Below are positions 21,152-60,961 of a DNA stretch of 64,000 bases, in pieces. This stretch comes from Keratinibaculum paraultunense. GTDB taxonomy: Bacteria > Bacillota > Clostridia > Tissierellales > Tepidimicrobiaceae. The number at the start of each line of letters is the position of its first letter. Position 1 is the first letter of the stretch. Both the position numbers and the translations under genes were made by a program. The stretch lies in the NCBI RefSeq assembly GCF_016767175.1, contig NZ_CP068564.1, positions 62,001 through 126,000 of the forward strand, given 5' to 3'. The notes beneath the pieces were generated by a model. That model was not told the origin of the DNA and ran no database searches. It worked only from the letters and a program-made list of their open reading frames with translations.

Positions 21152-21419
21152 CCCGTGCACCCAGCTTTGGCGTTATATCCCAAGCGTTACCTAAACAGTT
21201 AGCTCGGAACAGGCACCCCTGCGGCACACGAGAGTGTCTACTTACCGCTGCTTCCTCCCGGATCTGACGGGGTTCATAGATTCCCGTTGCGCAGGACCCA
21301 TTCGTCAACACCACTTATTTAGGGCAGACCTTGAAATATAAGCGCCGAGACTGGGAATTCAACCCTGCTATAGCGGATTGCAGGTTATAGGGCACCGCTA
21401 CCTCCCCATCTAGCACGGG
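21152..21419 (-). ncRNA. ffs: large-type SRP RNA (4.5S/6S-like)
   Basis: A 268-nt signal recognition particle RNA with Alu domain, as in Bacillus and Clostridium. The ends CCCGTGC (21419-21413) and GCACGGG (21158-21152) pair. The Alu domain starts TAGATGGGGAGGTAGCGG. The S-domain apical loop contains CAGATCCGGGAGGAAGCAGC, the Ffh-binding hairpin with its GGAA-type tetraloop and asymmetric bulge. It lies 12 nt downstream of tRNA-Ser on the same strand, so the two are likely one transcript. The short open frames here are not genes. Confidence 0.96.
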
Positions 21420-21431
21420 AAAGGTTAAAGA

Positions 21432-21523
21432 TGGCGGAGAGAGAGGGATTCGAACCCTCGAAACGCTTATCACGTTTACACGATTTCCAGTCGTGCGCCT
21501 TCGTCCAACTCGGCCATCTCTCC
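21432..21523 (-). tRNA. tRNA-Ser (anticodon GGA)
   Basis: A 92-nt class II tRNA with acceptor GGAGAGA/TCTCTCC, a long variable arm, T-loop GGTTCGAATCC and an encoded CCA end. The anticodon loop CTGGAAA (plus-strand 21484-21490) gives anticodon GGA for UCC/UCU. A perfect-consensus promoter lies upstream, and the SRP RNA follows after 12 nt. Confidence 0.97.
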
Positions 21524-27779: not shown

Positions 27780-27803
27780 ATGTAGTCATATACTTTTACC
27801 CTG

Positions 27804-27992
27804 TGTAATATAGCGCTCTATTAGAGGGCTGGGTATTCACAACTAATCGCAGTGATGGACCTATTAGGTACATCCCCAACATGAAATCTTAGGGAGGATA
27901 TCATGTTTCGGCAGTTACACCTTTCCCATAGAATTTCTAACCCCTAAATTATATTCTATGGTACTTATTGTAACTGCAGCCTCTATATTACA
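27804..27992 (-). ncRNA. lysine riboswitch of lysC
   Basis: On the minus strand P1 is TGTAATATAG (27992-27983) pairing with CTATATTACA (27813-27804). The L-box core blocks are AGAGGCTGCA, AATAAGTACC, GGGAAAGGTG, CTGCCGAAAC, GTTGGGGAT, CCATCACTG and AGAGCGCTA. Lysine binding should favour the terminator at 27737-27779 and switch lysC off. Confidence 0.95.
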
Positions 27993-28018
27993 GCTTACTA
28001 TTAAATTGTTTTCATAGA

Positions 28019-32050: not shown

Positions 32051-32410
32051 ATGGCTAGACCTAGAAAGCGAAGAATAGTATGTAAGCTACCAAATATAAA
32101 AGTATATGGACCATTAGATGGCAACATTCATGATGAACCTATTATATTATCTGTAGAAGAATATGAGGTAATACGTCTTATAGACTTGGAAGGTTTAGAA
32201 CAGGAGCAATGTGCTGAAAGGATGGGAGTAGCTCGTTCAACAGTACAAAGAATGTATACTGAGGCGAAACAAAAGGTTGCGGATAGTTTGGTAAATGGGA
32301 AGATTCTAAGGATAGAAGGAGGAGATTATATATTGTGTGAGGAAGATAATAACCGATGTATTTCATGTAATAGAGGACGACATAGACATAGGAGAGGGAA
32401 AATGGGGTAA
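32051..32410 (+). CDS. DUF134 family DNA-binding protein (1)
   Basis: A 119-aa protein of the DUF134 family. The start [21 protein letters not shown] and the sigma-70 region 4-like helix-turn-helix [19 protein letters not shown] (about 60-78) are diagnostic; the C-terminus has [20 protein letters not shown], a Cys/His-rich possible metal site. ATG 32051 follows AAAGGGGTGG. Members occur beside NifX-like and Mrp ATPase genes and are presumed regulators; it is a candidate reader of the palindromes at 29145 and 36619. A paralogue is at 37476. Confidence 0.85.
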
Positions 32411-32594
32411 AAAAACATATATATTCAATACGAAATTGTGTTTGTATAGAGGATAAGCAAAGTTGTGAGATATTTAATATGGAGATTATGTTTTATGAGT
32501 TGTACAAAGATTGTATAAAAGAGGAAAGTCAAAAGAATATAATTAAAAGCAAATTTAAGGATAATGCTATACATATTTCTTTAATAAAGTATTA
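32411..32594. other. intergenic stretch with a possible short reading frame
   Basis: The only in-frame ATG of note is at 32479, giving a 39-aa frame (MEIMFYELYKDCIKEES at its start) to 32598 that runs into the promoter of the cobalamin riboswitch. The frame is open upstream for more than 20 codons with several Cys (NCVCIEDKQSC) but has no start or ribosome site. It may be a decayed gene; I do not call it as coding. Confidence 0.25.
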
Positions 32595-32623
32595 TTGACT
32601 ATATAAATATAATAATATATACT
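32595..32623 (+). promoter_or_regulatory. promoter of the cobalamin riboswitch
   Basis: TTGACT (32595-32600), 17 nt, TATACT (32618-32623). Confidence 0.8.
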
Positions 32624-32626
32624 TAT

Positions 32627-32813
32627 GGTGTTGTTTTAGTAATCGGTAAAGGTACGAAGAATATACCTTCGTTTAAAAGGGAAACAGGTGAAAATCCTGT
32701 ACGGTCCCGCCGCTGTAATGGAGAGAGATTTAAACAAAGGCCACTGGGAAACTGGGAAGGCATAAATCTCTATGAACCTAAGTCAGAAGACCTGCCTTTA
32801 TTTATACACCGAT
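32627..32813 (+). ncRNA. cobalamin (B12) riboswitch
   Basis: Core blocks in order: GGGAAACAGGTGAAAATCCTG, CGGTCCCGCCGCTGTAA (B12 box region, 32702-32717), GCCACTGGG, GGGAAGGC, AAGTCAGAAGACCTGCC. P1 is closed by pairing of 32627-32647 with 32806-32813. The downstream stretch 32830-32908 has a G5 run, a C5 run and the G5 ribosome site of the next gene, which could form mutually exclusive pairs. It controls the YitT-type gene at 32916, an unusual target. Confidence 0.93.
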
Positions 32814-32915
32814 AACTCTACGGTCGATAGGGGGTGTTTAGACGAATAAAATATCCCCCAGTATCAGCTTAGGAGATTTTTTGTTGTCAAAATTATATAG
32901 AAAGGGGGAACAATA

Positions 32916-33767
32916 TTGAATAAAAAGGTTAAAGAATATTTATTGATAACCTTAGGGATGTTTATGGTTGCTGCTGGCTTATACTTCTTTTTGATGCCGG
33001 ATAATTTAGCCATTGGTGGAGCTAATGGGCTAGCTATTGTTCTCAACCATTGGATACCTTCTATATCTGTGGGTGCTTTTATGATAATAATAAATATAAT
33101 ATTATTTATTATTGGCTTCTTAGCCATAGGTACCAGCTTTGGCATAAAAACCATATACGCTAGTATAGGTACTTCTGTTATAGTTTCTTTATTTGAAAAG
33201 TTTTTACCTTATTATAATAGTCCAACTGAAGATATTATACTTCAGCTAATTTTTGGAGTACTTGTATCAGCCATTGGCATGGGAATAGTTTTTAATCAAA
33301 ATGCATCAACGGGAGGAACTGATATAATAGCCAAAATACTAAATAAGTTTTTAGGAATAGGATTGGGAAAAGGAGTATTGATTGCAGATTTGGCCATAGT
33401 CTTAGGCGCAGGATTCTCCTTTGGATTTGAACTAGGCATGTATTCCCTATTAGGAGTGATAGTAAACGGCTTTGTAATAGATTCTACCATAGAGGGGATG
33501 AATCTAAGTAAATCAGTAAGTATAATAAGTGAACATAGTGATGAGATAAAAAAATATATAGTAGAAGAACTGGGAAGGGGAGCTACCATATATTATGCAG
33601 AAGGAGCCTATACAAGAAGAAAAAAAGATGTCATAGTTACTATAGTAGATAGAAAAGATTTTATAAAGCTGAGAAGTTTTATAAAGGATATAGATAAAAA
33701 TGCCTTTGTTACGGTAAATAATATATACGAAGTACTTGGAGATGGATTTATGGATATTGAAAGCTAG
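32916..33767 (+). CDS. YitT family membrane protein (DUF2179 C-terminal domain)
   Basis: A 283-aa membrane protein with about five hydrophobic helices (first: YLLITLGMFMVAAGLYFFL) and a conserved GGANGLAIVLNHW, followed by NASTGGTDIIAKIL, and a soluble C-terminal DUF2179 domain (about 200-280, RKKDVIVTIVDRKDF). YitT proteins are widespread in Firmicutes and uncharacterised. The start is TTG with AAAGGGGG upstream. It is the only gene between a cobalamin riboswitch and a terminator, so its expression should respond to cobalamin; import or handling of a corrinoid, cobalt or a related solute is an inference from this position. Confidence 0.88.
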   Translation: MNKKVKEYLLITLGMFMVAAGLYFFLMPDNLAIGGANGLAIVLNHWIPSISVGAFMIIINIILFIIGFLAIGTSFGIKTIYASIGTSVIVSLFEKFLPYYNSPTEDIILQLIFGVLVSAIGMGIVFNQNASTGGTDIIAKILNKFLGIGLGKGVLIADLAIVLGAGFSFGFELGMYSLLGVIVNGFVIDSTIEGMNLSKSVSIISEHSDEIKKYIVEELGRGATIYYAEGAYTRRKKDVIVTIVDRKDFIKLRSFIKDIDKNAFVTVNNIYEVLGDGFMDIES

Positions 33768-33786
33768 TCAATAATATAAATTTATT

Positions 33787-33826
33787 AAGGACCAATTGAA
33801 TTCTGTTCAATAGGTCCTTTTATTTT
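33787..33826 (+). terminator. terminator of YitT-type gene
   Basis: Stem AAGGACC / GGTCCTT extended by ATTGAA / TTCAAT, followed by TTTATTTTAG. Confidence 0.85.
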
Positions 33827-60674: not shown

Positions 60675-60704
60675 ATGTAGATAAATAAGATAATATAAAA
60701 TAAA

Positions 60705-60961
60705 GGTAATGAAGGGAAGAGTAAAATTGGTCTTAGACCATAGAGAGCTGGGGTAGCTGAAAACCAGTGTCGAAGGCTAATTTGAATATGGTCCCTAAAC
60801 TCTGTAGCTGAATATAAGTAGGCTTTAGCGGTAGCATCCGTTATCATATGCAAGGTTATGTTAGTAACCTATAGAGGTTTAAACTGTGAAGTTTAAACAA
60901 ATTAGAGTGGTAACACGAGAATATGCCTTCGTCTCTAGAGTATAGAGATGAAGGCTTTTTT
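60705..60961 (+). ncRNA. Met T-box leader of metG
   Basis: A long leader with stem I (AGAGAGCTGGGGTAGCTGAAA and GAATATGGTCC with ATG as the likely specifier codon in the interior loop), the T-box AGAGTGGTAACACGAG (60904-60919, TGGT pairing with the uncharged tRNA end), and a terminator GCCTTCGTCTCT / AGAGATGAAGGC followed by TTTTTT (60925-60961). Uncharged tRNA-Met should stabilise the antiterminator and allow metG expression. Confidence 0.92.

Follow-up and report, generated by a model that had tools for sequence, protein, structure and literature searches.

The window analysed here is a stretch of 64,000 nucleotides from Keratinibaculum paraultunense (contig NZ_CP068564.1, positions 62,001 to 126,000, forward strand). 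At the locus under study, a cobalamin riboswitch is followed by a lone gene for a membrane protein of the YitT family, with the following features:

32595..32623, plus strand: promoter-like pair TTGACT-17-TATACT (consensus scan, 10/12 matches; a consensus match only)
32633..32813, plus strand: cobalamin riboswitch aptamer, RF00174 (119.9 bits and E 1.6e-29 in an Rfam cmscan of the entire window; full-length model)
32816..32832, plus strand: hairpin CTCTA-CGGTCGA-TAGGG 3' of the aptamer (near-invariant block in 8/8 aligned YitT leaders; stem checked)
32830..32859, plus strand: antiterminator-like pairing between two runs, one from GGGGG at 32830 and the other ending in CCCCC at 32859 (putative role; seen in the minimum-energy leader fold)
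32853..32882, plus strand: weak terminator-like hairpin ATCCCCC...GGAGAT, then T's (fold, -3.4 kcal/mol in the window)
32901..32908, plus strand: ribosome binding site AAAGGGGG (read from sequence)
32916..33767, plus strand: yitT, encoding YitT_membrane (PF02588) and DUF2179 (PF10035), 283 aa, TTG start (ORF list, Pfam, predicted structure)
33564..33764, plus strand: region of yitT encoding DUF2179 (residues 217-283, approximately), PII-like by prediction (Pfam 221-275; structure model)
33787..33819, plus strand: terminator hairpin 3' of yitT, then T's (fold and sequence)

The first-pass annotation had described a complete B12 riboswitch directly before a single yitT gene at 32627-32916. This description was borne out, with coordinates right to within a few bases: the aptamer match spans positions 1-189 of the 189-position model, far exceeds the gathering score of 31.5 bits and ends 103 nt upstream of yitT. 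It is the one cobalamin riboswitch of the window, and a permissive scan of 32400-33000 revealed no family besides RF00174. The promoter-like pair ends 9 nt 5' of the aptamer; ten such sites occur in the region versus 9.3 in shuffled sequences, which makes this pair weak evidence taken alone. The terminator hairpin directly 3' of yitT makes a one-gene unit likely, and in combination with the promoter-like pair the unit probably runs promoter, riboswitch, yitT, terminator. The neighbours downstream are cobW and ArsR-type, ArsP-type and thioredoxin-like genes; in the window, cobW was rejected as a member of the unit because of the terminator, and 163 nt lie between it and yitT. Elsewhere, the window carries two lysine riboswitches on the minus strand (42-196, 83.7 bits; 27803-27993, 111.7 bits), the latter preceding a gene that reads as an aspartokinase, as well as a T-box leader (60700-60939, plus strand), a large SRP RNA (21153-21418, minus strand) and a tRNA (21435-21523, minus strand).

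We take the hairpin immediately 3' of the aptamer to be P13-like. When it was enforced in the fold, the pairing between G-run and C-run was lost. Judged by analogy, the riboswitch is likely an OFF switch through which cobalamin represses yitT. With cobalamin plentiful, the aptamer would fold and the post-aptamer hairpin would hold the G-run, leaving yitT off through termination (or a block of translation). Under B12 scarcity, the G-run would pair with the terminator's 5' arm instead, allowing yitT to be made. The leader terminator of the sister genome reached -7.4 kcal/mol versus the weaker value in the window, where the score was 0 under our stricter hairpin/T-run rule. Across leaders, a hairpin of -7 kcal/mol or lower 5' of a T-run was present in 30 of 35 (a lax rule without control), and the stricter rule detected a terminator-type hairpin in 14 of 22 of these leaders versus 2 of 88 shuffles. 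The element resembles known cobalamin riboswitches of RF00174 in its full aptamer, the conserved hairpin that follows and, in many relatives, the terminator. It differs from them in governing yitT rather than a known gene of B12 synthesis, B12 transport or a B12-independent isozyme, and in the weakness of its terminator in the window.

The window genome (2,307,997 bases, one contig) contains four RF00174 matches of 126.6, 119.9, 114.8 and 106.7 bits, the yitT riboswitch being the second-scoring and inside the range of the other three. These three precede, by reading, what we take to be a cbiMNQO/B12-synthesis cluster, btuFCD and a DUF4430-plus-ECF set. Such units look like acquisition genes and favour the proposal of the first-pass annotation that YitT moves or handles a corrinoid or cobalt; in the form of uptake, this would make it an import route for B12 scarcity beside BtuFCD, ECF and CbiMNQO.

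A search for riboswitch-YitT pairs in relatives, proposed in the same annotation as a check, returned many. In a first survey, at least one YitT match was obtained in 94 of 100 relatives, so that the family is widespread, and when 20 of the resulting loci were analysed with Rfam, seven proved to have the switch 5' of yitT in the same orientation. The search was extended to a 391-genome sample of the class, a 249-genome sample of the order, named genomes (the best 80 of 291 relatives) and genome stretches, using a covariance model for which eight YitT leaders and the three other switches of the window genome were taken as input. Among 193 distinct YitT genes (duplicates removed, controls included), 30 were headed by a cobalamin riboswitch, 108 were not and 55 were undecided as the stretch ended. 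All 30 leaders passed the Rfam gathering score (Petroclostridium through locus L088). In 18 of the 30 units the switch precedes yitT directly, and in 12 there are genes in between. Control YitT loci with 38-44% identity had a riboswitch in 0 of 13 cases, one of them (L250) offering only 124 bases upstream. Recurrence in 30 units shows that the pair is no relic and indicates that YitT is a genuine member of the B12 regulon, and that it belongs to a B12-controlled regulon we regard as practically certain. In G078 (L050 10613-10765, also L017 2408-2560, both minus strand) the strand opposite to yitT carries a cobalamin riboswitch immediately beyond the 3' end of the gene, aimed into yitT. Because of this opposite, downstream position the L017 switch was not counted; it is possibly an antisense control or a relic.

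On a tree of 102 proteins, made up of the 30 positives and every other one of the remaining 143 (excluding 20 that were short or weak), the riboswitch label required 11 changes versus 26.2 when shuffled. In the clade of the window's YitT (12 genes, support 95/67), which an earlier tree with other sampling also kept together, 11 of 12 genes are riboswitch-headed. While the window YitT has both domains of its family over the cut-offs, it stands apart in belonging to the subset under B12 control. The switch lies directly before yitT in 10 clade members, the window included; in the eleventh, G033 (L047), scpC lies between. G033 is one of the two deepest members, and the two trees disagree on which is outermost. 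As an outcome that would speak against its proposal, the first-pass annotation had named a switch that in relatives precedes another gene since lost here. This is borne out in part: G033 presents such an arrangement and the other 10 riboswitch-bearing members do not. It is thus possible that the lineage of the window once had a gene between switch and yitT and lost it. Control of yitT by the riboswitch could have ceased in the window, the upstream gene having been lost and the terminator having decayed, but we regard this as highly improbable: the weak terminator and G033 fit the idea, but the score of the aptamer falls between the highest and lowest of the other three in the genome, the block 3' of it is conserved, and the direct arrangement recurs in the sister genome and eight more clade members.

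The sole clade member without a riboswitch, G011, carries yitT after znuACB-fur, which bears on a possible role of YitT in transition-metal balance (zinc or cobalt). In G084 and G519, too, yitT follows znuACB-like genes (L206, L205 and L040 are the loci of this type, including that of G011) and no B12 switch was found; in a Tissierella praeacuta record the second gene after yitT encodes ZnuA, and the cobW, ArsR-type and ArsP-type genes after yitT in the window would fit as well. We nevertheless consider a metal-related function very improbable, given that it concerns four genomes only and leaves sucCD and scpC unexplained, and that in the window yitT is cut off from cobW.

In the direction of transcription behind the switch, the 12 multi-gene units read:

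scpC-yitT: G033
AspT-like-scpC-yitT: G065, G025, G379
sucC-sucD-yitT: G043 (an 81-aa frame first), G616, G076
AspT-like-sucC-sucD-yitT: G048, G044, G029
AspT-like-yitT, then cobQ and cbiB: G029, second copy
metE-yitT: Eubacterium MAG (L078)

Hence sucCD or scpC stands directly before yitT in 10 of the 12. SucCD and ScpC convert succinyl-CoA to succinate. All proteins scanned (four ScpC, four SucC, two SucD) passed the NCBIfam cut-offs, the remainder being assigned by BLAST cluster. The sucD frame runs up to or into that of yitT (spacing -40 to +28 nt, taking the start of the longest ORF). An AspT-like exchanger is encoded in seven of the 12 units (PF06826 in 6/6 scanned; L259 by cluster). A published study places the succinate exporter SucE1 in the AspT family (PMC9527358). 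These exchangers belong to a Pfam family other than that of YitT, which is without PF06826 domains.

The link to sucC extends beyond shared operons. In all six in-order genomes where yitT stands directly behind a switch and sucC is encoded at another site (G066, G057, G618, G040, G045, G077), that sucC has a cobalamin riboswitch of its own, and sucD follows in all five of these that were read. No riboswitch lay within 1.5 kb of the Petroclostridium sucC or of three scpC genes (G060, G057, G615). Overall, sucC was present in 12 of 21 in-order riboswitch-YitT genomes (six by genome search, six in the operon; G025, G033 and G065, where sucC was not searched genome-wide, are entered as lacking). 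The corresponding figure was 0 of 34 for genomes that have the mutase but gave no YitT match at E 1e-80 (34 of 47 such genomes examined; Fisher p 6.7e-7, and p 0.001 upon shuffling within families); as this comparison set consists of YitT-negative, mutase-positive genomes only, the association may be with YitT and not with the switch.

YitT itself matched PF02588 YitT_membrane with 197.1 bits and PF10035 DUF2179 with 70 bits, both over cut-offs (COG1284 family). These were the only Pfam matches and NCBIfam yielded none; neither collection gave a match to a corrinoid or cobalt carrier (BtuCD, ECF, CbiMNQO). An AlphaFold2 model built from 57 sequences had a mean pLDDT of 87.7. In this prediction, residues 192-281 superimpose on PstA (4wk1) with Z 11.7 and 2.2 A over 84 residues, and the part from about residue 192 on SbtB with Z 11.3, so that DUF2179 is predicted to adopt a PII-like fold. 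By sequence, the solved structure matched was 3HLU, a DUF2179; a match to Rab1a was at chance level (E 0.98) and was rejected. YitT would hence resemble SbtA-SbtB in pairing a membrane protein with a PII-like domain, though in YitT this domain is fused and the membrane domain is without a significant match. Modelled alone (mean pLDDT 91.4), the membrane domain gave nothing under E 0.1 against the PDB in Foldseek, the best hit (E 0.14) being to a fold other than an ECF S-component. The best VIA matches were weak and include the vitamin S-components BioY at Z 5.0 (121 aligned, 4.0 A; one chain at Z 5) and ThiT at Z 3.9; these matches would fit a corrinoid carrier but are below a meaningful level alone. 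An internal repeat is weak (hhalign probability 14.9, E 0.0018). The invariant polar residues include S131, T135, D136, D158 and D189, and the membrane domain contains no invariant or nearly invariant His or Cys. Viral contigs yielded no relative.

A B12 switch that governs a YitT gene accompanied in relatives by enzymes converting succinyl-CoA to succinate suggests that the protein helps cells through a lack of B12, with transport of an organic acid as one possible means. Based on the gene content of the riboswitch-yitT operons, succinate or a like acid is the favoured cargo. YitT would be a small membrane protein whose cytosolic, PII-like domain may gate it. Under B12 scarcity it would act together with other proteins to relieve a stall of the B12-dependent methylmalonyl-CoA mutase: SucCD or ScpC would convert succinyl-CoA to succinate, and YitT and/or the AspT-like exchanger would let it out, with succinate or a similar dicarboxylate the most likely substrate of YitT. 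In favour of this reading, a study on Xylanibacter ruminicola reports succinate accumulation without B12, supplying the physiology from another group of bacteria; for strain KHP1 the same study places none of four cobalamin riboswitches beside propionate genes, which counts against the succinate reading (PMC11575231).

The mutase does not accompany YitT universally. The window genome has it together with an MmdA-like protein (925 bits, under the 998.8 cut-off), and it occurs in 21 of 21 in-order riboswitch-YitT genomes (in G057 only as fragments at contig ends); its presence within the order says little, since most in-order genomes outside family f4 have a mutase anyway. Outside the order it is absent from seven of eight riboswitch-YitT genomes (some of them drafts or MAGs; Petroclostridium is G272), with a fragment in G379. 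We therefore rejected the mutase as a universal YitT partner, and its bypass is not the whole story. Further points against export of succinate by YitT are that the window genome had no match for sucC, scpC or PF06826 Asp-Al_Ex at the thresholds used and that a second succinate carrier next to an AspT-like exchanger would be redundant. The lack of a significant match of the membrane domain to a solved transporter and the weak terminator in the window likewise weigh against the reading. Owing to the missing sucC, scpC and AspT-like genes of the window genome, the mutase-less genomes and the uptake genes behind the other switches, we hold the entire chain, from B12 OFF switch to a bypass that needs no B12 and has YitT carry succinate or a similar acid, with somewhat less than even confidence.

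Handling of a corrinoid or cobalt by YitT would account for riboswitch-YitT in mutase-less genomes and is compatible with the lack of sucC, scpC and AspT-like matches in the window genome. Candidatus Izimaplasma HR2 has three cobalamin riboswitches, and the two not at yitT precede acquisition-type genes by reading, namely an ECF/DUF4430-type set (NCBIfam named neither of two proteins scanned) and BtuFCD-CobQ-CbiB; this, too, argues against succinate. Clostridium tagluense yitT (L315) lies in an island with cbiQOMN (by reading) and several riboswitches, the second G029 unit continues with cobQ and cbiB and has cobD at the edge (by reading), and in G396 a CobD-like gene (281.2 bits, just under the 290.55 cut-off) directly precedes yitT. 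On the other hand, succinyl-CoA enzymes precede yitT in most multi-gene units and B12-synthesis genes occur in a single one, 3' of yitT; the protein itself gave no Pfam or NCBIfam match to a corrinoid or cobalt carrier and no Foldseek hit under E 0.1, and its membrane domain has no invariant or nearly invariant His or Cys. Of the first-pass proposal, B12 control thus stands, supported by the 30 units and by the uptake and synthesis genes at the genome's other switches, whereas a corrinoid or cobalt cargo ranks next after succinate and seems rather unlikely.

MetE and NrdDG are B12-independent isozymes whose genes are under cobalamin riboswitches. Like yitT they are presumed to be on at B12 scarcity, and four genomes (L078, L088, L256, L215) have them in the same unit as yitT or near it. 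YitT might therefore import a product normally obtained from B12-dependent enzymes, such as methionine or nucleosides, with an effect like that of MetE or NrdD. Riboswitch-metE-yitT in the Eubacterium MAG, riboswitch-yitT-nrdD in Petroclostridium (L088) and sucCD-yitT-nrdD in G043 (L256), the last two with nrdG next (by reading), and nrdD-nrdG-riboswitch-yitT in G060 (by reading) speak for this. But metE separates switch and yitT in one unit of 30, and product import appears distinctly improbable. Unlike MetE and NrdDG, YitT is a membrane protein whose usual partners are SucCD or ScpC. A link to SAM or methionine through a SAM riboswitch in L018 was not counted, as that element lies downstream of yitT on the opposite strand.

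The portions of the literature and the listings searched name no function for YitT; YitT proteins are merely listed there among changed genes or proteins (PMC10434189, PMC10533825). We found no literature on YitT with a cobalamin or any other riboswitch, and nothing related, judged by title, on B12 riboswitches with succinyl-CoA synthetase, sucC or succinate. A regulon defined by its ligand ties this orphan family to B12 scarcity as a condition and to SucCD and ScpC as partner enzymes, so that its role becomes testable. If the succinate reading is true, cobalamin riboswitches steer fermentation end products in addition to B12 supply and isozymes. One further reading is conceivable but rather doubtful: the YitT proteins behind B12 riboswitches would be founding members of a family of dicarboxylate (succinate) carriers gated by PII. 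Together with sucCD or scpC under riboswitch control, they would let cells of the window's order and its relatives change from propionate to succinate fermentation when starved of B12.

Additional arrangements were noted around these genes. Tandem cobalamin riboswitches precede sucC in G066 (L308 886-1080, 1202-1379) and the AspT-like-scpC-yitT unit in G379 (L262 177-359, 549-747). A gene for a FUSC/ArAE-like protein, another type of organic-acid exporter, follows riboswitch-controlled sucCD-yitT or sucCD at L265 7164-7658 (Pfam), L311 3755-4155 and L312 58-558 (both by reading). In three Clostridium species and Tissierella simiarum (L060, L063, L064, L055) a sigma-54 activator gene comes directly after riboswitch-yitT, and in Petroclostridium (L231 8936-9116, plus strand) a cobalamin riboswitch precedes a MATE-family transporter gene.
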